A stretch of DNA of 49,287 nucleotides, taken from positions 1 through 49,287 of the IMG/VR virus record IMGVR_UViG_3300036886_000138; one strand, written 5' to 3'. Each line of letters opens with the position of its first letter. Within the stretch, counting starts at the first letter, position 1. Positions 8,620-40,384 of this stretch are shown one piece after another. A program made the position numbers and the translations under genes. Source of the stretch: a virus. The notes beneath the pieces were generated by a model, which was not told the DNA's origin, did no database searches, and was given only the letters and a program-made list of their open reading frames with translations.

Positions 8620-8691
8620 CTTTGATAAGTCTCCTTTTTGGGTTATGGTTTATTTTAACTACTTCGCAGTTGCCTGCAAAGACCTTTTGTG

Positions 8692-8856: not shown

Positions 8857-9650
8857 TTAACATTCCCTGACAAAGATCGATGATACTCAATCATTTCGGT
8901 GATGTTCGGCCAAGCAGCTTTCCCGCTGAGATTCAATGAACATTCCGCGGTGAATTTCCAATTTGGAATGGTTTGTATCGACGGAACGGCGTTGATGCGT
9001 TCAAGCACCCATACATCGGGGAAATATCGCAGCAAGCGTTTATGCCGCACAGGGAACGTGGTAATTTTGCCGGTGAGCTTAACGTTTTCGCCGGTTGAAT
9101 CCGGTGACTCTTCTTCGGTTTGATGAAACGTTACAATCAAATCACACGGCAACGCCATCGCTCGCAGGATGATGGATTCTGCCGCTTGCATTTCGCTGCT
9201 CCAGCCATCGAAGGATTTTGATACATGAATGGCCATCCCGCCCTTTACAACGATTTCGCGGCGGAGGTCTTTTTCAACGTATAGATTATACGCCATTAAC
9301 GCCCGCGCAAATGTGGCCATTGAGTCGATGACCAACGTACCCAACGGTACAGATACTTCATCGAAACCAATCACTTTCAAAGAGCACTCTTTTTCAAGAG
9401 CGGTTAAAATATCAAGCGTAAGCGGTGCAGCGTCTGGTTGCGAAAATGGTTTCGCATCCCGAAATGTTTTGGCGTAGACACCTTTCCGCCCAGCAAGGCT
9501 TTCAGCCTTTTGGTCATAATCAAGGAATAATACAGGCTTTCTGCCGGTGGCAGCGAGCGTGCTTTTACCAACGCCTTCCGGCCCGATCAAAGCGATATGC
9601 TTTTTCGCCGTTGGCGCTAACGCGCCGATGTCGTGGGTCTCGACTGGCAT
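8853..9650 (-). CDS. RecA-fold ATPase, Sak4-like (AAA_24 type), recombination
   Basis: ATG 9650 with AAGGAG upstream gives 265 aa; the longer frame from 9788 runs through the neighbouring gene. Walker A GPEGVGKST is at residues 23-31, a DYDQK segment follows at about 43, and Walker B is TLVIDSMATFARA. A TFHQ segment at about residue 180 matches the sensor region of Sak4-type proteins. These ATPases work with phage ssDNA-binding proteins in single-strand annealing or recombination-dependent replication. The downstream DUF669-like gene and upstream PD-(D/E)XK nuclease fit a recombination set. Confidence 0.8.
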   Translation of the reverse strand: MPVETHDIGALAPTAKKHIALIGPEGVGKSTLAATGRKPVLFLDYDQKAESLAGRKGVYAKTFRDAKPFSQPDAAPLTLDILTALEKECSLKVIGFDEVSVPLGTLVIDSMATFARALMAYNLYVEKDLRREIVVKGGMAIHVSKSFDGWSSEMQAAESIILRAMALPCDLIVTFHQTEEESPDSTGENVKLTGKITTFPVRHKRLLRYFPDVWVLERINAVPSIQTIPNWKFTAECSLNLSGKAAWPNITEMIEYHRSLSGNVK

Positions 9651-9651
9651 T

Positions 9652-9855
9652 TTAAGGTCTCCTTTTTTGGTAGATAGCTTTTGGTCCTTTAGAAAATGTA
9701 ACAAAAATTTCAATGGAACTAAAACGTTTGTGACAACCACAGCACGCGTAGCGACGGTATTTCTGCCACGACCCGTCAAAACGAACACGGGTGTTTACTA
9801 CTCGTAATTGTGAGTCGCACTCAGGGCAAACGGAGTGGCTACGCCCTTTCGGCAT
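9652..9855 (-). CDS. NrdR-like zinc-ribbon protein, 67 aa
   Basis: From ATG 9855 (GAGGAG upstream) the protein contains VCPECDSQLRVVNTRV and YACCGCHKRFSSIE, matching the four-cysteine ribbon at the NrdR N-terminus (CPxC...RRRRECxxCxxRFTTYE). The ATP-cone domain of true NrdR is missing. It may bind DNA as a small regulator or associate with recombination proteins. An Ogr/Delta-type activator is the main alternative. It ends two bases before the Sak4-like start. Confidence 0.68.
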   Translation of the reverse strand: MPKGRSHSVCPECDSQLRVVNTRVRFDGSWQKYRRYACCGCHKRFSSIEIFVTFSKGPKAIYQKRRP

Positions 9856-9985
9856 CTTCGTTCTCCTCGTCAAAGTGGCAAGCGCAATTACAATCTTCCG
9901 ATTCACACTCCTCATGGTCACCCATATAACATTCGTTGGTGATCTCATCGCCCCACTCGTTAAGCATTGGGTTTTCTATGCCCAT
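9839..9985 (-). CDS. Acidic cysteine-rich small protein, 48 aa
   Basis: ATG 9985 lies two bases after the nuclease stop and the frame ends at TAG 9841-9839, overlapping the next gene by 17 nt. The product (MGIENPMLNEWGDEITNEC, then GDHEECESEDCNCACHFDEE) is strongly acidic with five Cys and two His that could bind zinc. The Shine-Dalgarno site is weak (GGAA), so it would depend on coupling. No family recognised. Confidence 0.55.
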   Translation of the reverse strand: MGIENPMLNEWGDEITNECYMGDHEECESEDCNCACHFDEENEDAERA

Positions 9986-9987
9986 AA

Positions 9988-11049
9988 TTATTCCGTTTCG
10001 TAAGCTACCCACGGTGGCGATTGTGTGTAAGAAGCCTGTATTTGCACGTTGCGGGCGCCGGGTGTAATAGAATCAATCGCTCGGTACTCGCAAGGGCGAC
10101 CGTAGTTAAAATGACAAGAGCTTTCTCGCATTGGCCACACGCCTGTGTTAATACACTCGCGCAGCCGCTCGGCTTTTACGATAACCTCACGACGCCATTC
10201 TTCAATTTCTTCCCAAGTATAGTTCGGATAAGCGCGCTTGAAGCGTGGGCGTTTAGCGCCACCGTTTTTCGGCTTATCGGTTGGTTCCTCACGGGCTGCG
10301 CCGTTTATGATGCAACGGTCAACAACGGAGTTGGGAAATCCCAAAGATTTGGCAAGCAGCCCAACGGCATAAATATAACCAACGGTCTGCGCGTGCGGCT
10401 TCCACTTAGCATCAAAGTCTGGCTCGATTTTCGCGGTCGTTTTGTGGTCTACTGGTACCAAACGCTTGTTCTCGTCCAGCACAACCAAGTCTGGCTTACC
10501 GACGTAGTAAACATCAACCTTGTCGGTTCCACCAACCCAAACTTCATCTTTCATCCCGAAACCACTCTCAGTGGCGATGATCTTCCAAGTACGTTTGTCT
10601 TGCTCGGCGCGTATATCATAGTACGAAGTAATCATCGTCATAGCGCCTTGCGGGAGCGGGTATGGCACGCCGTTAAATTCCACCTGAACGCTAGTGCCGC
10701 CGAACGCTTCGTACTTTTTCGGGTCGAGGGTTTTAAACAACTCCATACCATGCTCGTCCCAGCGTTTGACCGCGCTCACGATAGCGGCATTACGCGTAAG
10801 CGTACCCGCCGCCATCATCTCGTAGAAATCCGACATCACATCCGACCACCATTGACCAAACTTCAACGTCCAACCTACGGTGCCCTTCGGGCGGAGAATC
10901 ATACCCGCGGCATTGGGAAAATGCTTGTAAAAGAACAAGCGTTCGCAGGTGTTAAAGCTGTTAATCATATGGTGGTCAAAGCGGAGCTTCATTCGACCAC
11001 CGGGCAAACGCTCGTAGAATGGTTTGTACGCCAGAGGTTTATCTGTCAT
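9988..11049 (-). CDS. PD-(D/E)XK nuclease, RecB/Cas4-like
   Basis: The 353-aa protein has the RecB-type core: Glu161 in ATESGFG, GKPDLVV at 184-190 with the catalytic Asp, VDHKTT at 200-205 (D-x-K) and a following QTVGYIYA helix. A late ESSCHFNYGRPCEYRA segment has two Cys like the C-terminal part of Cas4/AddB proteins, though a complete four-Cys iron-sulfur set is not evident. Role inferred: processing DNA ends for recombination, or degrading host DNA. ATG 11049 overlaps the upstream stop by 4 nt with GGAGG 11 nt before it. Confidence 0.85.
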   Translation of the reverse strand: MTDKPLAYKPFYERLPGGRMKLRFDHHMINSFNTCERLFFYKHFPNAAGMILRPKGTVGWTLKFGQWWSDVMSDFYEMMAAGTLTRNAAIVSAVKRWDEHGMELFKTLDPKKYEAFGGTSVQVEFNGVPYPLPQGAMTMITSYYDIRAEQDKRTWKIIATESGFGMKDEVWVGGTDKVDVYYVGKPDLVVLDENKRLVPVDHKTTAKIEPDFDAKWKPHAQTVGYIYAVGLLAKSLGFPNSVVDRCIINGAAREEPTDKPKNGGAKRPRFKRAYPNYTWEEIEEWRREVIVKAERLRECINTGVWPMRESSCHFNYGRPCEYRAIDSITPGARNVQIQASYTQSPPWVAYETE

Positions 11050-19347: not shown

Positions 19348-19929
19348 TTGGGAACCCCTGTAGATAACCAGAACGGAGCAAGCAATGTACAGGGCAACCC
19401 CCGCCCCACAATTCAAAGCAAGACCTGGCTCAAGATTGAACAGATTGCCCGGATGCGAGTAGCAGGTATTAGCGTTACTCGCATGGCAATGATCTTTGGC
19501 GTAACCGAAGCAAGTATTACATACGTTATAGGATTGCCGGAATACGCCGAGCTTGAGCAGTGTATTTTGCTTGGCACGACCACAAAGATGGACGAGGCAC
19601 TCGCGTGTCGCGCTGCCGAGATGAGGAAGGTATTTGCTGTCGGCGTGCCCGCTGCGATGAGGGCGTTGGTGGAAACCGTGAATCAACGACGTGATCTTAG
19701 GTCGAGAATGGAAGCGGCGAAGGAGCTTCTTGATCGTGACCCGCAGCGCGTTTTTTCCAAAGGCAGTATCGCCGCTGGCGATGGGGCGTTTAACGTAACT
19801 CCGTTGCCGGAAGCTTTACTTAACTCCGTGGCGGAGGATAGCAACAAAACCGTTGAACAGGTCAAGACCTCTGATAACGCGCCGTTAGAAGGTGGCGATC
19901 CTGTAGCTAAAACAGGTCTCGTTCAATGA
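19348..19929 (+). CDS. Candidate small terminase subunit
   Basis: The 193-aa protein has a helix-turn-helix-like segment at about residues 26-65 (WLKIEQIARMRVAGISVTRM, MAMIFGVTEASITYVIG), then a helical central part and a disordered acidic tail, the plan of phage TerS proteins that bind pac or cos DNA. It is the first gene of the late unit and close to the large terminase. Start is TTG 19348 with AGGTG 4-5 nt upstream. No other TerS candidate is visible. Two unrelated genes separate it from TerL, which is unusual. Confidence 0.62.
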   Translation: MGTPVDNQNGASNVQGNPRPTIQSKTWLKIEQIARMRVAGISVTRMAMIFGVTEASITYVIGLPEYAELEQCILLGTTTKMDEALACRAAEMRKVFAVGVPAAMRALVETVNQRRDLRSRMEAAKELLDRDPQRVFSKGSIAAGDGAFNVTPLPEALLNSVAEDSNKTVEQVKTSDNAPLEGGDPVAKTGLVQ

Positions 19930-20396
19930 AACAAATGGACGCAGAGTTTGCCAAGTGTTTATCAGAACTTGCAGAAAACGCAACACCCCATCCTTTTATT
20001 GGCCCAGACGGCCACCTCAATGATATTTCAATCCAAAGTGTTTTGCATCGTGATCATAGGTATGACACCTGTGGAGACTGGTATCGTGATGGTATGATAC
20101 CAGGCGAAGGCGTTTTGCGTATTCGAGTTTCGTTCTTACAAGATTGGCGCAGCGAACTCTGCGTTGCCGTTCATGAGTTAATCGAAGCTGCGCTTTGTGC
20201 GCACGACGGCGTTTCACAACAACAGGTTGATGATTTTGATATGGACCTCAGCAACAAAAATCTAAAAGAACCTGGAGCTTCGACCCAAGCTCCTTACCAT
20301 CAACAGCATAGTTTCGCCGAAGGCGTGGAGCGATTGCTTGTTGATAGGCTAGGACTCAAATGGGCCGAGTACGAATCAACCATCGCGGCTTTATAG
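19926..20396 (+). CDS. HELIEA-motif protein, possible small metal-dependent protein
   Basis: The 156-aa protein contains VAVHELIEAALCAHDGV, where His-Glu-x2-x-Glu resembles a degenerate metallopeptidase helix (HExxH lacks its second His), and an upstream YDTCGDWYRDGMIPGEG segment. Similar short proteins with a HELIEA helix are common in phages and uncharacterised. ATG 19926 overlaps the previous stop by 4 nt. Its last 37 nt overlap the start of the exported 536-aa protein in another frame. Enzymatic activity is uncertain. Confidence 0.6.
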   Translation: MKQMDAEFAKCLSELAENATPHPFIGPDGHLNDISIQSVLHRDHRYDTCGDWYRDGMIPGEGVLRIRVSFLQDWRSELCVAVHELIEAALCAHDGVSQQQVDDFDMDLSNKNLKEPGASTQAPYHQQHSFAEGVERLLVDRLGLKWAEYESTIAAL

Positions 20397-21970
20397 CCGC
20401 GTTGATCACCGCTATTTTGTTCTTCGGTACACTTGTCCTCATCACCGAGCGTTCTGCTTTCGGTCAAACTGCTACATTCTTCAATAACACCTACACGATT
20501 GCCAAGAACGATGTCGCTATCAATAACCAAGGCTCACCGATAACGTTACACCGTTTAACGTGGGTTCCTATCGGAACCGTTAGCACCTGCACCGTTGCTT
20601 TGGATTCATCGGTTGACGGTTCAACCTGGGTTGCGGGTGGTGTTATCGCTGGTCAGACTTGCACAGGTGCCTCGCAGAGTGCGGTTACCATCGCCGAAGC
20701 GAACTACGTTCGGGTAAGCCTAACGGCCTTGAGCGGTGGCGGTAGCATAGGCGTTACTTACGACGGCAATGTGAGTGCCACCGGCCTTGGCTCGTCTGTT
20801 CGTTCCTCCATGCAATATAATAGCACCTACACCGCACCTACAGTGGATTCAGGCGTTAATCTCAACGGCTCTCCGATAACAATCCACCGACTAACATGGG
20901 TTCCAATTGGCACCGTTTCAACGTGCAACGTTGCTTTGGACTCGTCAGTGGATGGAACTAATTGGTCCGCAGGTGGGGCTATCGTTGGGCAGACCTGCAC
21001 AAGCGCAGGTCAAAGCGTGGCTACCACCAAAGTAACAAACTTTGTTCGTATAAATCTTGGAACGTTTACTGGCACCGGCTCGGTTGTTGTTATCTACGAT
21101 GGTAATATTGCAAGCGCCAACGGGGCTGGTTCTCCAGTGTTCACCAACCAAACTAACGTTTACGGCGCTTTTTTGCAGGATTTCTCAGCGGGAAGCATCG
21201 ACTTACCGGATGGCGCTGGCTTCGTGGCCACGACCGACTCAAACATAGGGATCGATACAACCGGCCAAAACGTACACCTTTTTAATGCCGGCACAGATAC
21301 GCTTATTCAAAGTTCACAAGCAATTCTCGCCCTAAATGTGATCCCGAAATCTGCGAACGGGAGCAGCGGGCTCCAAACCGCGTCTTTGTGCGTCGAAAAC
21401 GGCACGACGCTCGCCTGCACCGACTCCGGCGGCGCATCGTTTGTGGGCATTACTTCAACCGGAGCGGTTAGTTTATCTCCTGCCAACCTGGCCGTCACGA
21501 TTTCCCCTACTGGCACAGGCACAGTCGCCATCAATCCCACGGCAGTAGGTGCGATCGACAACGTGAATATAGGAGCAACAACGCCGGGCACTATCAAAGG
21601 CACCAATGTCAACGCGACGCTGACTTATAAAGTGAATTCTAAACTTTTGGGGTCGGCTACAGCCCCGACTATCAGCTCAGGCTTTGGCACCAGCCCCACC
21701 ATCCCCAGTAACAACGGCACCTTTGTTTTTACGATCAACGTGGGCACCGGCGGAGCCGCCACCACCGGCGTGGTCGCTCTGCCCGCTGCAACCACCGGAT
21801 GGCATTTATCGTGCGACGACATCACGACCAAGAGCGCCACGGTTGATTCAACTGTGCAAACCGGCGTAGGCACCACCACGACTGTGCCCATCGGAAATTT
21901 TACCAGCGGCGGCATAGCCGGGGCCTGGGTCGCGAGTGACATCTTGCTCTGTACTGCGATGGCTTACTAA
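20360..21970 (+). CDS. Exported/surface protein with two tandem cysteine-pair domains
   Basis: ATG 20360 has AGGA 5 nt upstream. Residues 10-30 form a hydrophobic segment after basic residues, ending at SAFGQ, which reads as a signal peptide or anchor. Two homologous repeats of about 113 residues follow (about 38-140 and 152-255), each with HRLTWVPIGTVSTC, LDSSVDG and GQTCT; the paired Cys suggest a disulfide. The same domain occurs in the protein at 29583. Residues 255-536 are low-complexity Thr/Gly/Ala beta-rich sequence of the phage fibre type. It lies between terminase genes, far from the tail genes. Adhesin, decoration protein or host-surface modifier are possible; none is shown. Confidence 0.72.
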   Translation: MGRVRINHRGFIAALITAILFFGTLVLITERSAFGQTATFFNNTYTIAKNDVAINNQGSPITLHRLTWVPIGTVSTCTVALDSSVDGSTWVAGGVIAGQTCTGASQSAVTIAEANYVRVSLTALSGGGSIGVTYDGNVSATGLGSSVRSSMQYNSTYTAPTVDSGVNLNGSPITIHRLTWVPIGTVSTCNVALDSSVDGTNWSAGGAIVGQTCTSAGQSVATTKVTNFVRINLGTFTGTGSVVVIYDGNIASANGAGSPVFTNQTNVYGAFLQDFSAGSIDLPDGAGFVATTDSNIGIDTTGQNVHLFNAGTDTLIQSSQAILALNVIPKSANGSSGLQTASLCVENGTTLACTDSGGASFVGITSTGAVSLSPANLAVTISPTGTGTVAINPTAVGAIDNVNIGATTPGTIKGTNVNATLTYKVNSKLLGSATAPTISSGFGTSPTIPSNNGTFVFTINVGTGGAATTGVVALPAATTGWHLSCDDITTKSATVDSTVQTGVGTTTTVPIGNFTSGGIAGAWVASDILLCTAMAY

Positions 21971-23658
21971 TGAACGAACAATTCCAACTCGTTCCTCACC
22001 AACCAAACGAATCACCAGAAGCCAAGATTCGTGTGATGCGAACCAACAGTCTCGGCTCTTTGTTTTGGTTTATCAAACACGCCCTACGTCGTAAGCGTTT
22101 GACAACTTCGTTGCATTTGCCGATCTGTCGTTCGCTAGAACGCGAGCACATCAAGGATGTGCTCGAAATGCCACGCGACCATTTCAAATCGACGATTTGT
22201 TCCGAGGGCTTGCCGATGTGGTGGGCGCTTCCATTTACGTCGGCCGATGAGGCGGAGTTTAAACTTCTTGGCTATTCGGAAGAATTTCTCCGTTTCATGC
22301 GTCATGTACATGACCCGGAAACGCGTACCTTACTTGTAAGCGAAAACATAACAAACGCCGCGAAGCTTGGTTCTAAGATTCGTTGGCACTTTGAATCAAA
22401 CGCTATTTATCGTTCCTTGTTCCCAGAGACTTTGCCATCAACTAAAGAGGTTTGGACAAACTTCTCGCTTCATGTACGCAGCGCGGCTGGTGGCAGCCAT
22501 GGCGAGGGAACGTTTGATTTCCTTGGGGTTGGCGGCGCTTTGCAATCTCGGCATTATAAGCGTGCGGTTCAAGATGATCTTGTCGGTCGTAAAGCGATTG
22601 AATCCCAATCTATCATGGACAAGACCATTGAATATCACCAACTTCTGGTTGGCGCGTTTGAAAGCGAAGATGCAAACCATGAAAACAGCGAACTCGTCGT
22701 TGGCAACCGATGGTCGTATTTCGACCTCAACTCCCATATACGGGAGAAGGAACCTTGGTTCCCAATTCACAGCCACAGTGCGCTTGGAGGGTGTTGCGGA
22801 TTACATCCGACTGATACGCCAATCTTTCCCGAGGAGTTCAGTCACAGTAAACTTGCCGGAATACGAAGGCGGCTTGGCGCATATAACTTTTCGTGCCAGT
22901 TCTTAAATAACCCCTGTGCTCCCGAGGACGCTGATTTTAAGCTTGAGTGGTTGCAATACTTCACCCCAACCATCTCGAAAGACTTCCGTGATATAATCGT
23001 TCACAAAGTGAATGGTTACGGTGTTCGCAAGGATTTGTACCGGCGATCGCTTGCAATTGTTATGATCACCGACCCGGCGCATAGCGAGGGAATATCAAAA
23101 GATCGTTGCCGCCATGCGATTGACATCATTGGTATGTCGGAGGACGAGAACTTTTACCTGCTTGATTACTGGGCCAAGCAAGCTTCCTATGATACCTACA
23201 TCGCCGAGCTTTTCAAAATGGCTGATAAGTGGAAACTTAATCAAGTTGGTGTTGAGACTATTGCCGCGCAACGCTATCTCGCTTACCATATTAAATATCG
23301 TAGCCGAATGGAAGGCCGCACGTTGCGCATCATTGAGTTAAAAGGTGAGGTCGAAGGCCCTGATGGCGCTATCACCACGAGAAAAGAATGGCGTATTCGT
23401 AACATTCTTCAGCCCATCTTTGAAGAGGGCCGATTCTGGATTAAGATGATGCCGGATGGGTCGGTACCACAACAAGATTTTCTTGGTGAGTATCAGACTT
23501 TTCCAAAGGGCAAGTTCTGTGATATTCTCGACGCGCTCGCCTACGCACCGCAGGTGCTTCGTAAGAGCATGACTAGTGGTGCTTACGATAGTTGGCGTCG
23601 AGCGAATGATTCGCGTCAGCGTTTGGTTAACCAATCTTATTCAGTAGCAGTAAACTAA
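21970..23658 (+). CDS. Terminase large subunit (TerL)
   Basis: The 562-aa packaging motor has a T7/T4-style ATPase with variant Walker A MPRDHFKST (67-75), Walker B RAVQDD (198-203), and an RNase H-like nuclease with Asp368 in MITDPAH, Glu429 in GVET and Asp518/Asp521 in FCDILDAL. These residues place it firmly in the TerL superfamily. The ATG shares a base with the upstream stop (TAATG). It cuts and translocates DNA through the portal encoded three genes downstream. Confidence 0.93.
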   Translation: MNEQFQLVPHQPNESPEAKIRVMRTNSLGSLFWFIKHALRRKRLTTSLHLPICRSLEREHIKDVLEMPRDHFKSTICSEGLPMWWALPFTSADEAEFKLLGYSEEFLRFMRHVHDPETRTLLVSENITNAAKLGSKIRWHFESNAIYRSLFPETLPSTKEVWTNFSLHVRSAAGGSHGEGTFDFLGVGGALQSRHYKRAVQDDLVGRKAIESQSIMDKTIEYHQLLVGAFESEDANHENSELVVGNRWSYFDLNSHIREKEPWFPIHSHSALGGCCGLHPTDTPIFPEEFSHSKLAGIRRRLGAYNFSCQFLNNPCAPEDADFKLEWLQYFTPTISKDFRDIIVHKVNGYGVRKDLYRRSLAIVMITDPAHSEGISKDRCRHAIDIIGMSEDENFYLLDYWAKQASYDTYIAELFKMADKWKLNQVGVETIAAQRYLAYHIKYRSRMEGRTLRIIELKGEVEGPDGAITTRKEWRIRNILQPIFEEGRFWIKMMPDGSVPQQDFLGEYQTFPKGKFCDILDALAYAPQVLRKSMTSGAYDSWRRANDSRQRLVNQSYSVAVN

Positions 23659-24280: not shown

Positions 24281-26199
24281 TCGAGCCAATCAAACTTGAT
24301 TTTGGACGCGAGGCGGAGGAACGATTTAAAAAGTTCCTCCGCACCCGCATTTTGCAAACCAAAGCTGGTCTGCAAGACCTCCATGAGAATCGTTTGCCTG
24401 CGATGCGTAGGGTTTATAAAGCGATTCCTTTGGAGAAGGTTCGTGAATTTCCGTTTCATAACGCTAGTAATATTGTTATCCCTGTTGTGGCCATTTATGC
24501 AGACACCCTCCTGAGCCGGATAATGGCTGCGATCTTTAAGACAATGCCGATTTGGGTTCTCAAAAGCTACGGCTCGCATACAGCAGCCGAGGCCGCTGAA
24601 CGAGATTTGCAGCGTAAGGCTCTTGAGGATGCCCTTCAATATTATGGCATCGAGCCGTCAGAGCTTGACTTGTATCGGGTTTATAACGAGTGGCTTGGCT
24701 GCACCATTCGTTACGGAACTGACATAGTTAAGGTTCCGTGGGAGACTCAGGTTGAGTCTTTCAAAACGCCTGCTGGTGATGGCAACGGCAAGTACGAAGA
24801 TGTCGATGAGGTCATCTATGATGGCCCCCGCCCCGAGCGTATCCAACTCGACGATTTCTTTGTTTCTCCAAACATCTCCTCCCTTGCAACCTGTGATTTC
24901 AAAGCCCACCGACGGCGAATGGAGAAGTGGGAACTTGAAGAAAAGCGCTTTCGCCAAATCTACGATGCGTCGAAGGTTGATTTAATAATCAAATCACCAT
25001 CGCGTCAGTCTCCGACTTCCTCTGAACAAGAACAACAAACCGACTCAGGTGCTATGACTGCTCAGGGTTATGGCTATGCCGAGTGGGATATTTGGGAATG
25101 TTGGTGCCGTTATCGCATTGGTACAAGGCTTTACCGTGTGGTAGCGAGTTACCATCTTGAAACTGATACCCTTGTTCGGGCGTTTTATACCTATTATCCC
25201 GAGGATATATTTGTTGCCGCAAGGCTGTTCTTTGAAGATGGCATGTTCTTTGGGATGGGCTTCTGCGAGGCGCTTGGACAGTTTCAGGAAGAAATCACTA
25301 CGATTCACAACCAACGACGCGATGCGATTACCGTTGCGAATTGTAATCTAATGCGGGTTTCACCGGATAGCAAGTTGAACGCTGGGTATCGTATCTTCCC
25401 AGGCGCAACGATTCCGGCTGAGAAAGACGAGATTGAACCGCTTAAGTTTGGTGAACCATCACAGATGACCATTGAGGAAGAGCGGATGTCTTTCGATCTT
25501 GCAGAACGGAGAGCAGGTGTTTCACAGCCGTTGCAAGGTATGGGTTCTGGTTCGTTTAATAAGAAAGGTAATTATTCCGCGATGGGCACTTTGTCGGTGA
25601 TGCAGGAAGGAAATAATCGTACCGATTTGAATATCACCGACATGCGTTACGCGCACGCGAGGCTTGGGCGTATCGTAGCTCGGCAGATGGCGGAATTCAA
25701 AAACACCCCCGATGCTTATGGTATGTTTGGGATAAAGGCCGAGCGTATTGTGGCTGCGTTGAAAGCTTTGCGTAGCGGTACTCTCGCCTTACCTATCCAG
25801 GCATCTAACGCTAGTATCAACCGAGAGGTTGAGAAGCAAAACGATCTAATGTTGTCGAATGTCGCCAGCAGACATTATGGAATGATTACCCAGATGTTGC
25901 AGGCGTCTGCGCAGCAGATGATACCGCCAGAGGTTAAGACATACCTCAAGGACGCTATCAAGGCTGCGAATCAGTTAATGACCGATGTTTTCCAGCATTT
26001 CAATTATGACGAGCCTGAAAGGCTCGTACCGGAGCCACATTCAGATGAACCAGGACAACAGCAGCAAGTCCCTTCTTTACAGGGAGCACAGCCAAATCCG
26101 CAGGCTCCTCAGCAGCCCGGAGGCGACAACGTTCTTAGCATGGCTGAAAGAACGCCAATCGCATTACCTAGCGGTGCTTCGGGTATGCAGCAGCCTTGA
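24277..26199 (+). CDS. Portal protein
   Basis: The 640-aa product starts with helical RLPAMRRVYKAIPLEKVREF, then FHNASNIVIPVVAIYADTLL, a pattern seen in podovirus portals, followed by stem and clip regions and a QMTIEEERMSFDLAERRAGV segment. It forms the dodecameric vertex through which TerL pumps DNA. Gene order (TerL, portal, small protein, scaffold, capsid) supports it. The C-terminus is Gln/Pro-rich and its last 155 nt also encode the start of the next protein in another frame. Confidence 0.85.
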   Translation: MIEPIKLDFGREAEERFKKFLRTRILQTKAGLQDLHENRLPAMRRVYKAIPLEKVREFPFHNASNIVIPVVAIYADTLLSRIMAAIFKTMPIWVLKSYGSHTAAEAAERDLQRKALEDALQYYGIEPSELDLYRVYNEWLGCTIRYGTDIVKVPWETQVESFKTPAGDGNGKYEDVDEVIYDGPRPERIQLDDFFVSPNISSLATCDFKAHRRRMEKWELEEKRFRQIYDASKVDLIIKSPSRQSPTSSEQEQQTDSGAMTAQGYGYAEWDIWECWCRYRIGTRLYRVVASYHLETDTLVRAFYTYYPEDIFVAARLFFEDGMFFGMGFCEALGQFQEEITTIHNQRRDAITVANCNLMRVSPDSKLNAGYRIFPGATIPAEKDEIEPLKFGEPSQMTIEEERMSFDLAERRAGVSQPLQGMGSGSFNKKGNYSAMGTLSVMQEGNNRTDLNITDMRYAHARLGRIVARQMAEFKNTPDAYGMFGIKAERIVAALKALRSGTLALPIQASNASINREVEKQNDLMLSNVASRHYGMITQMLQASAQQMIPPEVKTYLKDAIKAANQLMTDVFQHFNYDEPERLVPEPHSDEPGQQQQVPSLQGAQPNPQAPQQPGGDNVLSMAERTPIALPSGASGMQQP

Positions 26200-26317
26200 G
26201 GAAATAAGAAAGGCGCAAGGCTCACTTGAGGCCATTGAGAAGATTCTTGGATTACCAGATGAGCTAAGGCAATACTCGGAAGATATAAGGTCTGGTAAAA
26301 TTAAAAAGGAGGAGTGA
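26045..26317 (+). CDS. Small head-region protein overlapping the portal end, 90 aa
   Basis: The chosen ATG 26045 has GGAG 11 nt upstream; the frame opens earlier at 25985. The product is helical (FLAWLKERQSHYLAVLRVCS, LEAIEKILGLPDELRQY). Small helical proteins of this kind often lie between portal and scaffold genes in podoviruses. About 155 nt overlap the portal C-terminal codons. Coding evidence is best for the part after the portal stop, where it is the only frame. Confidence 0.62.
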   Translation: MNQDNSSKSLLYREHSQIRRLLSSPEATTFLAWLKERQSHYLAVLRVCSSLEEIRKAQGSLEAIEKILGLPDELRQYSEDIRSGKIKKEE

Positions 26318-26322
26318 CCCAG

Positions 26323-27042
26323 ATGGGATTATTTGGAGCTAAGAGGGAAGAAGATTTGCCGGAGGAGCTTCGTGGGTTAACAGCCGCGCAGGTTCTTGAA
26401 AAGATCAATGTAGGAAGGCAAGCCCTTGACTTGGCCAAAGCTCAAGAAGCGGAGCTTGCTACGCTAAAAGCGGGCGATGCAACGACGAAATCAGAGCTTG
26501 CTCAAACCCGCGAGGCGTTGGCTGCGTTGAACGCCGCGAATCGAAAACCTGTGGTGGAGAACAACAATCAACCTCAGCGTTTGTTCGTTACCGACGAGGA
26601 AGAAGATGCCTTTAACACTCGTTTGAATAACGAACTCGCGCCCTTGCGAGCGGGCTTGATGTTTAACAGCGCCATGCTTGCGCGGCAAGCCGCTGAGCAT
26701 AACATCGCCAAGAACCGTCGTGATTCGATTATCCTTGGCAAGTACCGCAACGAAGTTGAGGAGCTTTTCAAGCGGGTGCCAGCACAGAATCAGGTGTTCT
26801 CCGACGCGTTTGAGAATTGCTTCGCGTTGGTAAAAGCCAAGCACATGGACGAAATCATGGAAGCGATTCAAAAGAACGATGTTTTATTCACTGAACCGGC
26901 GGGGCCAAGCGGCGTTCGTCCAGACGATAACGCCCGTAAGGATACTCTATCACCTGATGAGTCCTCGATCGCCAGGCGGATGGGTATTAGCGACGTTGAT
27001 TGGACAAAATCTCGCAAAGAGGCGGTGGTTTATGGACGTTAA
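26323..27042 (+). CDS. Scaffolding protein (candidate)
   Basis: ATG 26323 is 8-10 nt after GGAGGAG; the alternative GTG 26314 is inside the spacer. The 239-aa acidic, helical protein has a coiled coil (QALDLAKAQEAELATLKAGD), a disordered middle and a short C-terminal helix (VDWTKSRKEAVVYGR), the usual plan of scaffolds that bind capsid protein with their C-terminus. Position just before the capsid genes fits. No protease gene is seen. Confidence 0.72.
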   Translation: MGLFGAKREEDLPEELRGLTAAQVLEKINVGRQALDLAKAQEAELATLKAGDATTKSELAQTREALAALNAANRKPVVENNNQPQRLFVTDEEEDAFNTRLNNELAPLRAGLMFNSAMLARQAAEHNIAKNRRDSIILGKYRNEVEELFKRVPAQNQVFSDAFENCFALVKAKHMDEIMEAIQKNDVLFTEPAGPSGVRPDDNARKDTLSPDESSIARRMGISDVDWTKSRKEAVVYGR

Positions 27043-27574
27043 TAAACCAATAACACCAGCATTGACAACAGCGAATCTTCCGAAACCCCCAATCGAGCCA
27101 CCGGTTGAGGGTGGTTCAAGGGATGAGTTTGCGGGCATACGAGCAAAACCACTTTTCGGCAGTGATCCAACCACTGTCGTTTCGCTGAATCCGTCTTTGT
27201 CGTTTCGATGGGTCAATCGACTCGCCAAGGACGGTCTTTCAGCGACCCAGTGGGAAGCGCGTGGTATGCGTTACGCAGCGGCAACGGATGCCAAATGCCC
27301 TCATGCGTTGTTTCGGGACGGTCGTTTCATCTACGGCGATCTTATATTGATGTGCATGCCGCGGACGGATTATCTCGGCGCGTTGAAACACAACGACGAA
27401 ACGGCGCGTAGGCGTGTGGCTCACGCTAACCAGCTTCGTGCTGGCAAGGCGATGTTGCAGGAGGAAGTTAATGCCGGCAAAGGTTCGGCCATACATAAAC
27501 GCCCAGGTCTTTTCCAGGTATTTACACCCGGCCAATCGGAATCTGGTATCCCCGAGGCCGGCCCAGACTCGTAG
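27032..27574 (+). CDS. Hypothetical head-region protein, 180 aa
   Basis: ATG 27032 overlaps the scaffold stop by 11 nt. The N-terminal 50 residues are Pro-rich; residues 55-130 (VVSLNPSLSFRWVNRLAKDG, GDLILMCMPRTDYLGALKHN) look like a compact alpha/beta domain common next to podovirus scaffold genes. The tail is Gly/Pro-rich. Function unknown; a virion or assembly role is inferred from position. Confidence 0.65.
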   Translation: MDVNKPITPALTTANLPKPPIEPPVEGGSRDEFAGIRAKPLFGSDPTTVVSLNPSLSFRWVNRLAKDGLSATQWEARGMRYAAATDAKCPHALFRDGRFIYGDLILMCMPRTDYLGALKHNDETARRRVAHANQLRAGKAMLQEEVNAGKGSAIHKRPGLFQVFTPGQSESGIPEAGPDS

Positions 27575-27617
27575 TTATTCTCAGAGTAGTTGACCCGAAT
27601 CCTAATAGGAGGTAAAT

Positions 27618-28166
27618 ATGGCGAGTGCTTTGATTTATGCAATTCGAACGGTTTCGGGCAATCAACCTGTGGTTGACCGAATCATTGAAAAGAACGCTCA
27701 GACTTTTGTATTGGGCGTTCCTGTTCAGATCGACGCAGGGACGGGAGCCATCAAAGAATGGGATGGCGCAACGCTTCCGGGTATCGCAGGCTTCTCGAAA
27801 GCCGCAGGCGCGAACCTTACCACTACTGGTACGGCTCAAACCTTAACCTTTGGCGTGGTGCCTTTCCAATCTTCAGGGGTTAACATCCCTCGCGGCGCGC
27901 CTTTCAACGACGGTAAAACGCCGTTTGAAGCAGCTGCACCGGATACGGTATTCTACGGGCAGATCAATCCAACCGTCCAAGTATTGCTTGCAACTGACGT
28001 GGGTAAGTCCTATGGCTTAACCAAGGACACCGACGGACATTGGTTCGTTGATAAAACCAAAGTCGGCGCTTCTGCCGCGGTGAAGATCATCGAGCTTGAC
28101 CAGAACGACATCCTTCGCGGTGTGCATTTCCAAGTGTTGTCAACAGCAGCTAGTCTGACCACCTAG
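27618..28166 (+). CDS. Candidate capsid decoration or head protein, 182 aa
   Basis: ATG 27618 follows AGGAGG by 6 nt. The protein is beta-rich and Gly/Thr-rich (QTFVLGVPVQIDAGTGAIKE, WDGATLPGIAGFSKAAG), like small head-decoration proteins (DUF2190-like) that lie directly before major capsid genes. The role is inferred from fold impression and position. Confidence 0.6.
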   Translation: MASALIYAIRTVSGNQPVVDRIIEKNAQTFVLGVPVQIDAGTGAIKEWDGATLPGIAGFSKAAGANLTTTGTAQTLTFGVVPFQSSGVNIPRGAPFNDGKTPFEAAAPDTVFYGQINPTVQVLLATDVGKSYGLTKDTDGHWFVDKTKVGASAAVKIIELDQNDILRGVHFQVLSTAASLTT

Positions 28167-28179
28167 CCAGTGAGCTTTA

Positions 28180-28198
28180 CCTTCGGTTAACCCGAAGG
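28180..28198 (+). promoter_or_regulatory. Hairpin in the capsid gene leader
   Basis: CCTTCGG (28180-28186) pairs with CCGAAGG (28192-28198) around a 5-nt loop; no U run follows, so it is not a terminator. It lies 12 nt upstream of the AGGAGG site of the capsid gene and may protect or process the message. Confidence 0.5.
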
Positions 28199-28221
28199 AA
28201 TCTTAGAGAGGAGGAAGCAAC

Positions 28222-29181
28222 ATGACGATGATGCGTGAGGGCTTTGCCCAACTCATGGCTCCTGGCCTACATCACACGTTCGTTCATTGGATTGATTTGA
28301 AACAGCGTGAGGAAGAATACACTCATCTGTTTCACGTCGAAACATCGGACAAAGCTTTTGAGGACGAGGTGGAATTTGCAGGCTTGCCGCCAATGATTCA
28401 GAAGGACGAAGCCACGTCGGTTCAGTACAACGATGCCATACAAGGTGGCACCGTGCGGTATAATATGTTCACCTTCGCTTTGGGTGTGCGAAGCTCGTTT
28501 GAGCTTTATGAAGATGACCAGTACGGTATCATTATGCAAGTGCCAAAAGCACTTGCCCGTAGCGGTCACTTCACACTCGAACAGCGATCGGCGAACATAT
28601 TAAACAACGGCTTCTCATCGACAGGTACTTTGACCACCGATGGTTTGAGCCTGTTCAACAACCAACACCCGCTGCTTGGCGGCCCTGGCGCCACTAACAT
28701 CGGGCCGGGCCTGACTAACGTGATCGGTGCCGCTGGCACTTATCCGAATCGTCCGTCAACCGATCTTGATCTCTCGGTTACCGCTTTGCAATTGATGATA
28801 AATCAATTCGAGCGGTTGGTCGATAGCCAAGGTTTGCCGATTGTTCTCAAGCCGAAATTGATCGTGATCCCGCCTGAGCTTCAGTTTATCGCTTCTGAAA
28901 TCCTGGGCTCCGCTCACAAGCCGTATACCGCCGACAACGAAATCAATGCGCTTTTGTCGCAAGATTTGAATTTCTTCGTCGGCCACTACTTCACCTCGCA
29001 GAGCGCGTGGTTTGCCCTGTGCGACAAGGACCAACACCAAATGAAGGTGTTCATGCGTCGGAAGATGGACACCAAATTCAGCGACGACTTTGATACCTTG
29101 AGTGTCAAAGAAATCGCCTTCTGGCGTGGTGGTTTCGGCGCCACTTCATGGATGGGAACATGGGGCAGCAACGGCCCTTAG
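28222..29181 (+). CDS. Major capsid protein, Mu gpT-like HK97 fold
   Basis: The 319-aa protein resembles the Mu gpT-type capsid subunit: a long N-arm, LEQRSANILNNGFSSTG, the LSLFNNQHPLLGG loop, TALQLMINQFERLVDSQGLP, VLKPKLIVIPPELQFIASEI and a C-terminal WFALCDKDQHQMKVFMRRKM strand. The start has the strongest ribosome site in the late unit (AGGAGG) and a leader hairpin, consistent with high expression. No maturation protease is seen. The GroES-like protein may assist its folding. Confidence 0.88.
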   Translation: MTMMREGFAQLMAPGLHHTFVHWIDLKQREEEYTHLFHVETSDKAFEDEVEFAGLPPMIQKDEATSVQYNDAIQGGTVRYNMFTFALGVRSSFELYEDDQYGIIMQVPKALARSGHFTLEQRSANILNNGFSSTGTLTTDGLSLFNNQHPLLGGPGATNIGPGLTNVIGAAGTYPNRPSTDLDLSVTALQLMINQFERLVDSQGLPIVLKPKLIVIPPELQFIASEILGSAHKPYTADNEINALLSQDLNFFVGHYFTSQSAWFALCDKDQHQMKVFMRRKMDTKFSDDFDTLSVKEIAFWRGGFGATSWMGTWGSNGP

Positions 29182-29213
29182 GGTAGTCAAAATCTAAAAA
29201 GGGAGGTTTTCTT

Positions 29214-29540
29214 ATGCCGGATATTGTTGATATTGCCAGCAGGACACCGAATTACTCGGTGACGGATACAAAAAACCCGCATCTCAACGGGGCCTACAGG
29301 TTCCTCGCTGAGTGCTCGCTTTGCCACGCGCAGGTGCGTGGGCCATCAGTTGATGTCGGTGACATCATGGTGGAGCATTTGAAAGACAGGCATTTCGCGG
29401 ATGCGGTGGCTACGCCGGACTCGGCGCATCCGCAGCAACCGTTGGTGGTGGAGGAGCCGGTAAAGACTTTTGTAATTGTTCCGCCGGCTGCAAAACCACC
29501 GATTGCAGTACCACCTGTACCACCGGTGGTGGGTTCGTAG
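29214..29540 (+). CDS. C2H2 zinc-finger-like protein next to capsid, 108 aa
   Basis: ATG 29214 follows GGGAGG by 7-8 nt. Residues Cys34, Cys37, His55 and His60 (ECSLCHAQVRG...VEHLKDRHF) form a C-x2-C-x17-H-x4-H zinc-finger-like site; the tail is Pro/Val-rich, probably unstructured. It is the second C2H2-like protein of the phage. A structural zinc in a small virion or assembly protein is as likely as nucleic-acid binding. Confidence 0.65.
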   Translation: MPDIVDIASRTPNYSVTDTKNPHLNGAYRFLAECSLCHAQVRGPSVDVGDIMVEHLKDRHFADAVATPDSAHPQQPLVVEEPVKTFVIVPPAAKPPIAVPPVPPVVGS

Positions 29541-29582
29541 TTCGGAGAATTGACCCACAAATTCAATTTGGAGGTTATTCGG

Positions 29583-30575
29583 ATGAAGAAGCTTTTGGCT
29601 TTGCTCATGCTTTCCCTATGCTTCGCAGCAGCACCTGCGCAAGCGCAGTTCAATGGTACGTTGACCCAATCAAATACGTTGATTGCAACTGGCGTTAGCG
29701 GCCCGATGGCAACTGGTAACGTCACGACCACGTCGTTGAACGTTGGGCTTTATCAGCTAACGTGGTGGGGGCAGGGCACCGTTTCGACCTGCACTATCGG
29801 CGTTGAGGTTGCCAGCACCTCGGGTGGTTCTTACTCCGGCGCAGGAAACACTCAGACCTGTACTAGCAACGGCTCTTACTCGTTTTTCCTTGCGCCAGCT
29901 TCTACTAACGCTTATGTGCATGTGAACCTAAGCGTGCTCAGCGGCGCTGGTGCTACCATTAACTATACCCTGAACGCTTTTCAGGGTACACCAGTGGCTG
30001 GTACTGGTGTGCTAGGAACAACCATCACTGATGGTATGGTGTTTATTCCTGCCACTCAAGCTGGTTGTTTTGTCACTCCAACTACGCTAACACAAACCCT
30101 TACCACTGTTCGGGCGGCGTTAAATAACACCGTAATGAACTCAACCACCAACGCTGCCGCTGGAAGTGAGGAATGGGATTGTGATATTACCTCAGCCCTT
30201 GCTTCTCGTACGACCGCTTTGAAAGGCGTCACAATTACCGCGATCAATGAGTTCTATGGTACTCAAGCCGCCACGGCAACCTCTCTTGCTAACGCAACCT
30301 ATGACACAGTTACCTACCCAGCGGTAGGTGGCGCAGCCTCGGGCACCGTAAGTTCTATTCTTCCCGCAACTGTGACTCCTGGTATGTCACACAGCACTCC
30401 AACCGCAACCACCTCTGGTCAGTGTGTGAATGAGGGTAACGTTCTAACTACCCCTCTGCAACTCACGGCCGCTATTGCTAGGATAACCTACTCACAGGTG
30501 TTTTCGCAAACTGCGGCATCAGCCATGACCATTCAGCTTTGTGGGTTCCAAGTGTTGTTTACTTACACCAACTAA
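29583..30575 (+). CDS. Exported protein with signal peptide and shared cysteine-pair domain
   Basis: ATG 29583 follows GGAGG by 8 nt; the frame from 29550 starts before it and is rejected. The N-terminus is a textbook Sec signal peptide: KK, a hydrophobic core (LLALLMLSLCFAAAP) and AQA before Gln. The mature part starts with a domain like that in the protein at 20360: YQLTWWGQGTVSTC, VASTSGGSY, TQTCT, VHVNLSVLSG. The remaining 200 residues are beta-rich Thr/Ala/Gly sequence with further Cys. It stands between capsid and lysis genes. Surface display, periplasmic action or virion attachment are all possible. Confidence 0.75.
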   Translation: MKKLLALLMLSLCFAAAPAQAQFNGTLTQSNTLIATGVSGPMATGNVTTTSLNVGLYQLTWWGQGTVSTCTIGVEVASTSGGSYSGAGNTQTCTSNGSYSFFLAPASTNAYVHVNLSVLSGAGATINYTLNAFQGTPVAGTGVLGTTITDGMVFIPATQAGCFVTPTTLTQTLTTVRAALNNTVMNSTTNAAAGSEEWDCDITSALASRTTALKGVTITAINEFYGTQAATATSLANATYDTVTYPAVGGAASGTVSSILPATVTPGMSHSTPTATTSGQCVNEGNVLTTPLQLTAAIARITYSQVFSQTAASAMTIQLCGFQVLFTYTN

Positions 30576-30639
30576 CGCAGGGCTTTACAAAGTCCTAGCA
30601 ACCGCGAGCCGGCGCAGGCATTAACCGGCGGGGGGACTT

Positions 30640-31302
30640 ATGAGAACACAAGGCGTTTTTTACGCTGATACACCGCATCAGGGGGGCTTCTTTATACATG
30701 GAGCCTCCCAGCTACAAACTGATTCTGCGAATCTTGCTATTGCCAGGAACGCCATCGGCGATTGGTCATTAAATCGCACCGCGACTGGCGCTGAGACCTA
30801 TCACGTTCTTCTCCAGCTTGATGAACTGAAACGGCTTATTGAGGTTTCGACAACCCCAATGCCGTTCCAAGAACAATTTGGTAAAAGTGCTGGCACTTCG
30901 GGCTGGCCAGCAGGCACGCCTGGATTGCCGCCGTTTACCGGCGCTTCGCAATTAACCCCGCCAACTCAAGACGTCCCAAAGGGTTTACGAATCCTTTCTG
31001 TCTGGGTAGCTTATCAGGTTGGTGTTGTTGACTTGACGAGTGCCACTATCGGCGTTTCACGAACGGGTTTTGGCAATAACCTTGCAAACGTTATAACACC
31101 AGTGCTTGCGGCGACAGCTATCGCAAAGACTGCTGCCGGCGACGCGACTGGTCCATATCTTTCCGAGGTTGCTATTGCTGCTCCGGTGTTTGAGAATCTT
31201 GATTCATCGGACATTTTAATCGAAGCCACGTTTGTGATGGCCAATACCGGCACTCTCCGAGTGTACGCGATTGGCTTTGACTGTGATTTTAACTACAACT
31301 AA
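30640..31302 (+). CDS. Hypothetical structural protein, 220 aa
   Basis: ATG 30640 follows GGGGGGA. The protein is beta-rich (TYHVLLQLDELKRLIEVSTT, LRILSVWVAYQVGVVDLTSA, LRVYAIGFDCDFNY) with Gly/Pro loops, as in small phage fibre or head-fibre proteins. The 64-nt leader contains two short hairpins (AGGGCTTT/AAAGTCCT and GCCGG/CCGGC). No family recognised. Confidence 0.65.
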   Translation: MRTQGVFYADTPHQGGFFIHGASQLQTDSANLAIARNAIGDWSLNRTATGAETYHVLLQLDELKRLIEVSTTPMPFQEQFGKSAGTSGWPAGTPGLPPFTGASQLTPPTQDVPKGLRILSVWVAYQVGVVDLTSATIGVSRTGFGNNLANVITPVLAATAIAKTAAGDATGPYLSEVAIAAPVFENLDSSDILIEATFVMANTGTLRVYAIGFDCDFNYN

Positions 31303-32333: not shown

Positions 32334-32498
32334 ATGCATATAAATTGCAGAATGACGGGAAGTTCTCGTAAAAGCGTCGGGGCTTCGTATGTCTGGTTTT
32401 ATAAGTATGGATTCGGAATCTGGATCTGGCGTTTGCTGTTCGGATTCGGGCATGACACAAGATCAAGGGCGCTGTATCGCGGCAATGACGCCGCTTAA
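32334..32498 (+). CDS. Small aromatic-rich protein, 54 aa
   Basis: ATG 32334 follows GGAGG by 8 nt. The product (MHINCRMTGSSRKSVGASYV, WFYKYGFGIWIWRLLFGFGH) has a short aromatic hydrophobic stretch that could lie in a membrane. It belongs to the lysis-region cluster. No family recognised. Confidence 0.5.
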   Translation: MHINCRMTGSSRKSVGASYVWFYKYGFGIWIWRLLFGFGHDTRSRALYRGNDAA

Positions 32499-32511
32499 AA
32501 AGGAGAGTAAC

Positions 32512-32916
32512 ATGAAAACCATTTTGAAAGTCTTCACCGCTGTGTTACTATTCTCGACGGGCGCACAAGCCGGGCAAGCTCAAAGGCCGAGCGAACGAGC
32601 GAAAGCCGATCTTGCTGACACGAAGGCGACGGCGCGTGTAGCCGAGGCCAAGCAACTTTTACAGGAAAGAGTGAAGGCTGAAGTGCGAATTAAAGAAATC
32701 GACGCACGCTTGGCGGCGCTCGATGCTGGTGCGGAGCCTAATTCCTGCTGGGTCATTACGGTTCCGCCTTCCTGTTGCAGTGCGGCAGCACCAATCTTTC
32801 AGTGGATGATCACCACCCCAACCTACAACTATTGTGGGTGTGGGACTCCTTATACGTCTTGCTGCACCAGCGGCACGATTACACTTGGTAGCACGCCGAT
32901 CATTATGCTTAATTGA
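32512..32916 (+). CDS. Exported cysteine-rich protein, 134 aa
   Basis: ATG 32512 follows AAAAAGGAG. A Sec signal peptide (MKTILKVFTAVLLFSTGAQA) is followed by a coiled-coil-like charged helix (about residues 27-75) and a Cys-rich end with CW, SCC, YNYCGCG and SCC groups, seven Cys in about 45 residues. Oxidised in the periplasm these would form several disulfides. The layout (export signal, helix, rigid tip) could span the periplasm, but no lipobox is present. It is not a family I recognise. Confidence 0.62.
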   Translation: MKTILKVFTAVLLFSTGAQAGQAQRPSERAKADLADTKATARVAEAKQLLQERVKAEVRIKEIDARLAALDAGAEPNSCWVITVPPSCCSAAAPIFQWMITTPTYNYCGCGTPYTSCCTSGTITLGSTPIIMLN

Positions 32917-33705: not shown

Positions 33706-33720
33706 CAAAAGGGTTTGGTA

Positions 33721-37927: not shown

Positions 37928-40384
37928 ATGCGAAAACTAACGTTTTGTTTCATTGCCGTTTTGTTGCTGTTGCTATTCGCTGGACGAGCAAATGCCCAGG
38001 GCGTTCCGTACCATGATATTGCTTTCTCGTCTGTGACGGGTAAACCAATTGGTGGCGTAAACGTTTATGTTTGCACTGCATCGGCGACTGGCGCTCCATG
38101 TTCGCCACAGGTAAACATTTATACCAATCAAGCATTAAGTCCGGCGAACCTGATTACACAACCTTTAAACGCTGATAACCTTGGGAATTTTTCTTTTTGG
38201 GCTGCGCCAGGTATTTACAAAGTTCAGGTTATTGGAACAGGTATTACAACCTATAGCTATTCTATAATTGACCCTGTTGATCTTACCAACTCATATAGTG
38301 GAACAGTTAATTTTACCGGCATTGTAAATATAACAACGCTTAATGTTAGCGGTGTACTTACCCTAGGCACCCTTGTATTACCGAATCTTGGCTCGATTCA
38401 TTTTGCCGCTGGCTATAGCGGGGGCGATTGCGGGGCGAAGATAAATTCCGCTGATGCTGATTTGGGTGTGGTTGCCGGAGAAATTTGGGTTAATCAAGCG
38501 TGCGGCTTGGTTTGGACTACTCGCGTCTCTGTTTCAGCCAATCATACAGTTAGAATGATTCAGGCTGGTAATTACGTATTACCAACCGGAACGCCCTCAA
38601 GTCCGGCAATTACGCTGGCCGGAAACAATTCAAAGCTGATCTGTGGTGGATGGGACACGATCTTCAACTATACGACTCCGGCTTCTGACAGCGCACCGAT
38701 GGTTTATGCAAACGCGACGGCCGGAAACGTTGTGAAGGATTGCTCTTTTATAGGAACGGCCGGGCCGACCATCAACGTGCCGCTCGGCAATTCCGTGGAT
38801 ACGGCGACTAACGGGCAAGAGGGTATTCTGTTCAATAATGTAACAAATTGCCAGATTATCCATAACCAATCGACCAATCACGGCTATGCGGGGATTGTTC
38901 TCGTCAGGTCCACGCGATGCGAGGTGAACGATAACACGGCAAATTCCAACACTTCGGGCGGCGGAATTTTAGGGTGGTCTACCGATTTAGGGCCAATGCT
39001 TGAGAATACATTTGATAAAAATATCATTAGCAATAATGGATGTCTTGGTGCGGCTTGCTTCCAGGCAAGAGGCATTCTGATGGCTCGTCTTGGAACCACT
39101 AATGGGCCGGTTGGAAATAAAATAACCGGAAATACGGCGAACAGCAACTCCCTCTATGGAATAGAAGTATATCAATATGGACGTAAAAATATCATCACTG
39201 GAAATACGTTCAACGGGAACTGTGTAGGTGGTATACACGATTGGACGAATACATTCGATATTATATCATTTAATATAGTGACTGGAACCGGGGGTATAAC
39301 CTGTCCCAATAGTGCGGGTGGGGTCATCAATGGTGGTTATGGAATACGAGTAGGTTCAGGTTACTATAGCCAAGTAGTAAATAACTTAGTTGCTGGAAAT
39401 AATACAAGCAATCTCGCTGGTTATCCGGGAATAGGCGTTGATGGAGAAGGGGCACTTAACTCATTCGGGATGTTGGTTAGTGATAACACTGTCCGTGATC
39501 ACCAAGCATCCAACGATATCCTTGTCTCCTCCAGTGCGTTAACAACGCTTGGTGCAGCGACTTATTATTATGTAGCAGTTGCTTATGGGACAACTGGAAC
39601 GGTTCTCGCACAAAGCTCTGAGGTTTCCGCCGTGGCCGGTGGTGGCGGCTCCGTGCTTCTAAGTTGGTCAGAGTACCAAGGAGTCGCAGTTTATCGAGTT
39701 TATCGGGGTACTGCCCCGGCTGGAGAGAATGTTTATTATATCCTTCCCGGACCTGCCTACGTTGATACAGGGAACGTTTCTACCCGTAATGCAGGGACCC
39801 CCCCAGGTTCAGGGAATTCTATTGCTAATCCATCAGCAACTGTTGTAGCTGGAGGGTTTGATACTCAAGGCATTGTGGTTCACGACAACGCTTTGTACGG
39901 AACTACAAGCGTAACTCCATTATCTGTTGGTTCTAATGCGTGGTCTTATGCCAACCCGACTTCTTTGACGAATCCTGCGGCCTCTGGAAACCTTCGGCTT
40001 AACTCCGGTGACTCAATTGTGTGGAGAAATAATGCCGGAACTGGAGACATACCTTTAGCTAAAAGTGCCGGAGACTTGCCGACATTTCAAGGGAATATTA
40101 TTCCTGTTATTGCGCTTGGTGCTCAATCGAATTTGCGCTCGGCAACCGCTGCCCTAACGTTTGGCTCAATCCCGGCAAATAGTTGTTCAGAACAGCCTAT
40201 TGCTGTGACTGGAGTACCAACGACAAGCGCCGTATTCGTTAGTCCACAAGTAAGTATAGGGGCAAACTTTAGTTGGTCAGCTTATGTAAGCGCATCAGGA
40301 ACTGTACAAGCAAGGGTATGTAATGTGACCACCGGGGCATTGACTCCGAGTGTTCAAACATGGACGGCAACCGAATTACAGTGA
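37928..40384 (+). CDS. Tailspike-like beta-helix protein with a signal peptide
   Basis: Residues 1-23 are a Sec-type signal peptide: RK, hydrophobic FCFIAVLLLLLFAG, then ANA before Gln. A head-binding-like domain follows (GKPIGGVNVYVCTASATGAP, GNFSFWAAPGIYKVQVIGTG). Residues about 230-540 are a right-handed parallel beta helix of the NosD/pectate-lyase type (NNVTNCQIIHNQSTNHGYAG, KITGNTANSNSLYGIEV). A fibronectin-like part with YYYVAVAYGT and a C-terminal domain with TFGSIPANSCSEQPI end the protein. Such proteins bind or cut host polysaccharide. A signal peptide on a tailspike is unexpected, because virions assemble in the cytoplasm. Confidence 0.78.
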   Translation: MRKLTFCFIAVLLLLLFAGRANAQGVPYHDIAFSSVTGKPIGGVNVYVCTASATGAPCSPQVNIYTNQALSPANLITQPLNADNLGNFSFWAAPGIYKVQVIGTGITTYSYSIIDPVDLTNSYSGTVNFTGIVNITTLNVSGVLTLGTLVLPNLGSIHFAAGYSGGDCGAKINSADADLGVVAGEIWVNQACGLVWTTRVSVSANHTVRMIQAGNYVLPTGTPSSPAITLAGNNSKLICGGWDTIFNYTTPASDSAPMVYANATAGNVVKDCSFIGTAGPTINVPLGNSVDTATNGQEGILFNNVTNCQIIHNQSTNHGYAGIVLVRSTRCEVNDNTANSNTSGGGILGWSTDLGPMLENTFDKNIISNNGCLGAACFQARGILMARLGTTNGPVGNKITGNTANSNSLYGIEVYQYGRKNIITGNTFNGNCVGGIHDWTNTFDIISFNIVTGTGGITCPNSAGGVINGGYGIRVGSGYYSQVVNNLVAGNNTSNLAGYPGIGVDGEGALNSFGMLVSDNTVRDHQASNDILVSSSALTTLGAATYYYVAVAYGTTGTVLAQSSEVSAVAGGGGSVLLSWSEYQGVAVYRVYRGTAPAGENVYYILPGPAYVDTGNVSTRNAGTPPGSGNSIANPSATVVAGGFDTQGIVVHDNALYGTTSVTPLSVGSNAWSYANPTSLTNPAASGNLRLNSGDSIVWRNNAGTGDIPLAKSAGDLPTFQGNIIPVIALGAQSNLRSATAALTFGSIPANSCSEQPIAVTGVPTTSAVFVSPQVSIGANFSWSAYVSASGTVQARVCNVTTGALTPSVQTWTATELQ

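Follow-up and report, generated by a model that had tools for sequence, protein, structure and literature searches.

Candidate Sec-exported fibre and spike adhesins in a group of soil tailed phages

Tailed phages are taught to assemble purely in the cytoplasm, and the same normally holds for their appendages. The phage examined here nonetheless carries, among its packaging genes, a gene whose product begins like an export precursor. The sequence analysed here (the window) is one virus record of 49,287 bases, a single metagenomic contig, and the relatives used for comparison are contigs of soil phages. The original prediction described a 536-aa ORF with a signal-like N-terminus and two tandem Cys-pair repeats, inferred that its product is exported, and offered two roles: a moron that alters the host surface, for example for superinfection exclusion, or an envelope-facing virion protein. 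The ORF and its repeats are indeed present (Table 1), the latter being 56% identical to one another and each about 107 aa long. The best explanation, to which we assign a probability of roughly one half, is that this protein and its relatives are Sec-exported, disulfide-bonded fibre or spike adhesins that join virions at lysis.

The target gene is embedded in a recognisable packaging and structural region. The identity of the TerL gene is certain, and the portal protein matches the SU10 portal family (PF23899, 8e-12). TerL is shared at 53-60% with fourteen IMG/VR contigs, while its sole genome match is a phage contig in a Sulfuriferula MAG, possibly mis-binned; the contig filed under this MAG (TerL 45%) is complete, with a 141-bp terminal repeat, and has the same structural gene order. 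The target was expected to lie between the small terminase gene and TerL. This is the case for the pair as a whole, although the gene immediately upstream encodes a 156-aa protein rather than TerS. The expected overlap of the target start with this preceding gene amounts to 37 nt, and at its other end the target stop codon shares a single base (21970) with the start of TerL. Overlaps with TerL and with the upstream gene, together with a paralogue that follows the major capsid gene, place these genes in late structural operons.

An apparent signal could also be the result of a chimeric assembly or a mis-called start, given that the gene is known from a single metagenomic contig and that a near-identical contig (L029) stops short of it. 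However, the start has a good ribosome-binding site (AGGA, five bases 5' of the ATG) as well as the operon overlaps, and the same architecture is found in many independent contigs. Such an artefact is therefore most improbable, being largely excluded by the relatives.

Table 1. Coordinates of the target gene, its sub-features and the neighbouring genes in the window.
Feature	Position	Strand	Evidence or remark
TerS	19348..19929	+	synteny; homologues upstream of TerL in relatives
HELIE-motif protein, 156 aa	19926..20396	+	homologues elsewhere in relatives
Target gene, 536-aa fibre-like protein (predicted export)	20360..21970	+	ORF, ATG start
Sec-type signal peptide, aa 1-35, predicted site G35/Q36	20360..20464	+	rule-based test; direct reading
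Cys-pair repeat 1, aa 37-141, C77 and C101	20468..20782	+	hmmsearch iE 5e-43, with a family model that already includes both target repeats; alignments A2/A6
Cys-pair repeat 2, aa 149-255, C189 and C213	20804..21124	+	hmmsearch iE 2e-44, same model
'YGAFLQDFSAG' module, aa 260-355	21137..21424	+	also in the L005 fusion and in large spike/fibre proteins with signals (L001, L002, L006)
Fibre motif around SPTGTGTVAINPTAVGAIDNVNIGATTPG, aa 368-411	21461..21592	+	71% identical to L003/L004 repeat
TerL	21970..23658	+	PHROG 38, E 5e-62
Major capsid protein	28222..29181	+	PF10124/PHROG 371, Mu gpT-like/Phage_capsid_4
Paralogue: signal MKKLLALLMLSLCFAAAPAQA/Q and one Cys-pair repeat	29583..30575	+	3' of capsid gene; GGAGG before ATG 29583
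818-aa beta-helix tailspike-like protein, signal MRKLTFCFIAVLLLLLFAGRANA/Q	37928..40384	+	PF13229 E 3e-10; TIGR03804

The N-terminus of the target (MGRVRINHRGFIAALITAILFFGTLVLITERSAFG/Q) has a basic n-region, followed by a hydrophobic core of 19 residues and a site compatible with cleavage at -3/-1. The mature protein contains eight Cys that fall into four sequential pairs (77/101, 189/213, 344/353 and 485/531), and it carries the fibre motif "SPTGTGTVAINP...IDNVNIGATTPG". Comparison of the whole protein with PHROG, Pfam and PDB gave no significant match, and close homologues of the target or of the spikes were absent from 50,697 phage records.

Contigs of related soil phages contain the Cys-pair repeat in 18 non-redundant ORFs, the window paralogue included, and the two Cys of the repeat are invariant across the 18 aligned repeats. 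A rule-based check of the n-, h- and c-regions placed a signal peptide at the start of every one of these ORFs; the signal sequences differ, the layout of the three regions is typical, and many have A-x-A/Q sites. On these comparisons the target is not an isolated moron. Beyond the target, two structural genes of the same phage are signal-bearing, namely the paralogue and the gene for the beta-helix protein, neither of which the original prediction had mentioned. When the repeat pattern was searched in 84,980 bacterial and archaeal genomes, none of the 48 pattern matches was homologous, and thus, at that pattern sensitivity, nothing points to a domain taken from a host or to lysogeny.

A hydrophobic N-terminus need not be a Sec signal, and could instead be an anchor, buried in a membrane or in the virion, that is kept in the particle. 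The core of the target is followed by an acidic residue and exceeds the usual length of cleaved signals, which makes a signal anchor possible in this one case; an internal signal-like segment is also found in a fusion protein of one relative. We nevertheless consider an anchor quite unlikely, because the family has the typical organisation and the many cleavage sites described above, as well as the even Cys counts presented below. In the fusion itself (L005 1834-7053; G016 25904-31123), a g120 homologue is joined in frame to the signal-like segment and a giant spike, and translation from a TTG at codon 116 would give a product with a typical signal peptide at its N-terminus. We did not accept this fusion as proof of virion attachment, since it is a single case, an internal TTG start is possible, and other g120 homologues are free-standing.

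Signals are also concentrated in fibre-like proteins. Across 354 non-redundant genes of at least 200 aa, our home-made rule (not SignalP) called signals in 43 of 66 fibre-like proteins, defined by S+T+N+G >36% and charged residues <13%, compared with 6 of 288 other proteins (Fisher p 7e-32). The same pipeline returned no positives at >=150 aa in T7 and P22 and two in lambda, Lom and Rz, both of which are truly exported or membrane (envelope) proteins; with two more phages, 1 of 105 control genes of at least 200 aa was positive (Lom). Among the 23 fibre-like proteins scored as signal-less, several have a hydrophobic, signal-like start and narrowly fail the rule (among them L011 2515 and 3993, L027 1987, L037 9085), and 13 are without any Cys, with several homologous to the Cys-free core proteins g575, g233 and g182.

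The Cys content provides a pointer that is independent of the signal rule, since proteins whose Cys pair up as disulfides in an oxidising compartment would have even counts. All 43 exported fibre-like proteins contain Cys, and the mature count is even in 37 of them (p=8e-7, in a test where related proteins are not independent of each other; this count replaces an earlier, smaller one of 17/20), while even counts occur in 114 of 227 (50%) comparison proteins outside this class. These even counts point to disulfides formed in an oxidising compartment. Together with the signals throughout the repeat family, they lend strong sequence-level support to the export that had been proposed, and these proteins, as surface-binding parts of the phage, are probably folded outside the cytoplasm. 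One spike N-domain homologue (L011 649-1611) is without a signal, indicating that export is not obligatory; it also lacks the C...C pair of most signal-bearing members and has one Cys in all. As a natural control it leans toward a link between export and disulfides, notwithstanding a signal-bearing relative in L037 that likewise has no Cys pair in that domain.

Several features suggest that the exported proteins are fibres or spikes. Target residues 368-411 have their L003 counterpart in a repeat from a fibre-like protein of 1002 aa (ORF 5599-8607), encoded on a contig otherwise unrelated to the window, and residues 260-355 recur in L006 and in giant proteins of spike/fibre-like type from L001, L002 and L005. 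L006 in addition has a tail-fibre PHROG match at 1e-12, and, judged from its sequence, the signal trait extends beyond the clade of the window. In L026, a signal and repeat are followed by modules matching several tail-fibre PHROGs (E 1e-9) and head-decoration PHROGs. The signal-bearing genes are found in a spike slot, with g523/g120 on one side and g246 on the other, behind the capsid gene, or next to TerL. Spike/fibre-like genes lie upstream of TerL in L011 and L012/G001; those in L009 and L018 are 5'-cut, with N-termini beyond the contig data.

The relatives with complete genomes, as judged by terminal repeats (G003 and G005, 127 bp each; G018:C7, 141 bp), are the most informative, as every recognisable spike/fibre candidate in them is signal-bearing. 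Their only large, Cys-rich, low-charge beta-type proteins are, respectively, pairs of 641 and 597 aa, 1424 and 365 aa (accompanied by a 257-aa near-signal protein), and 598 and 795 aa, all with signals. The last two are pectate-lyase-like (PF12708 matches at E 0.007 and 1e-5, which fall short of the Pfam cut-off). Core virion proteins have few or no Cys. If the signal-bearing proteins were not receptor-binding, these three phages would be without a recognisable receptor-binding part, and it is mainly because they have no other spike/fibre candidates that we prefer a virion role. The same consideration bears on the idea that these are soluble glycan-binding or polysaccharide-degrading proteins, freed at lysis and never on the virion, whose signal serves only disulfide formation before lysis. 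While beta-helix or pectate-lyase-like and Ig/TIG/CHB_HEX_C modules on signal-bearing genes are consistent with such a function, it would leave the complete relatives with no recognisable receptor-binding protein at all, and the fibre-type modules favour attachment to the particle, so that we regard this idea as unlikely.

The main rival is an exported surface moron, that is, a non-virion envelope protein that masks receptors or glycans and thereby excludes superinfection or keeps progeny off debris. A signal peptide and adhesin-like repeats would be expected of such a protein, and the variable gene positions are cargo-like. Moreover, lambda Lom, which our rule also detects, is an exported protein encoded within a tail-gene cluster, and T5 Llp is an exported moron like Lom. 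The target resembles these morons in its rule-based signal peptide and its location among virion genes, but differs from them in that neither an outer-membrane barrel nor a lipobox is seen, in its fibre modules, and in that each genome has several proteins of this type. Tail-fibre modules are present in its relatives, the complete genomes contain no other spike candidates, and searches with PADLOC and NCBIfam gave no match to exclusion or defence proteins. Independent, non-late expression would be expected of a moron; the overlap of the target with both packaging-operon neighbours would argue against this. A surface moron is hence a doubtful explanation, though the strongest of the rivals, and the envelope-facing virion protein is the better fit of the two roles originally offered, given the tail-fibre modules, the late operons and the complete relatives.

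The likeness to phage tail fibres and tailspikes, such as the P22 gp9-like beta-helix spikes, extends to low-charge composition rich in S/T/N/G, fibre repeats, modular N- and C-termini, the spike gene slot, and the beta-helix of the 818-aa protein and its relatives. However, well-studied fibres and spikes are without Sec signals and assemble in the cytoplasm, whereas here signals and even Cys counts are the rule. The absence of an export signal is a usual, if not strictly defining, feature of tail fibres; with signal-like N-termini in 18/18 family members, the target would be at most an exported variant, assignable to this class only in part, and its predicted export departs from the tail-fibre norm. 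The repeats also show some likeness to F5/8 type C (discoidin-like) or Ig-like adhesion domains, in a weak 'SxDGxxW ... YVRxxxxxxGxG' pattern and a beta-rich character; the L012 member, for its part, has a major-tail-protein PHROG match at 1.6e-4. This likeness is not significant across the family (best PF00754 match E 0.003, in 1 of 18 repeats and below the Pfam threshold), and the repeat has its own invariant Cys pair. A discoidin identity was not confirmed, as the match to PDB 3f2z (E 0.14 with alignment A2) was lost with the larger alignment A6.

If the target is an exported virion adhesin, it would be a late-expressed, fibre-type protein synthesised as a Sec preprotein, translated from the packaging operon in coupling with TerL and then exported to the periplasm. 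Once there, it would lose its signal and perhaps oligomerise, with disulfides forming as its beta-rich repeats and distal domains fold. At lysis, as periplasm and cytoplasm mix, the folded protein would meet finished capsids and attach to them, becoming an appendage of the virion with which glycans of the cell surface are bound; the paralogue and the beta-helix spike would follow the same route. P22 tailspikes are able to join finished heads outside the cell, which makes late attachment physically plausible. Across the phage group, signals and even Cys counts suggest that the periplasm is used for disulfide-stabilised adhesins attached at lysis. That a soil tailed-phage lineage as such sends its receptor-binding fibres and spikes through host Sec, oxidises them in the periplasm and attaches them to the capsid only at lysis is a broader proposal, which we make tentatively and hold to be somewhat less than evenly probable.

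In the open-access literature we found no precedent for exported tailed-phage appendages, or for Sec signals as a regular feature of fibre/spike proteins. If true, the proposal would contradict the usual rule of entirely cytoplasmic construction in tailed phages, part of the virion being made outside that compartment, and these proteins would be a source of disulfide-stabilised binders. It would also change how phage adsorption proteins are recognised, as the lack of signal peptides has been used to support the phage origin of DGR target proteins (Benler et al. 2018, PMC6199706).

Several further observations were made in the window and its relatives. The HELIE-motif gene upstream of the target is mobile among relatives (G001 15920, G002 26486, G016 10120, L002 1303). 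On L006, a 62-kb phage contig, about seven signal-like genes are clustered at 2151-10086, one of them with a tail-fibre PHROG match. A 418-aa window protein (33715-34971) has, judged by eye, the look of an ATP-grasp (PurD-like) ligase; its homologues lie amid structural genes in nearly all relatives (G001, G002, G004, G005, G016), and a similar gene is present in G018 (19822-21129). Finally, a 175-aa signal-bearing protein encoded at 32389-32916 (start perhaps 32509), which has a CWVITVPPSCCSAAAP stretch and adjoins the endolysin gene, is possibly a spanin-like lysis protein.
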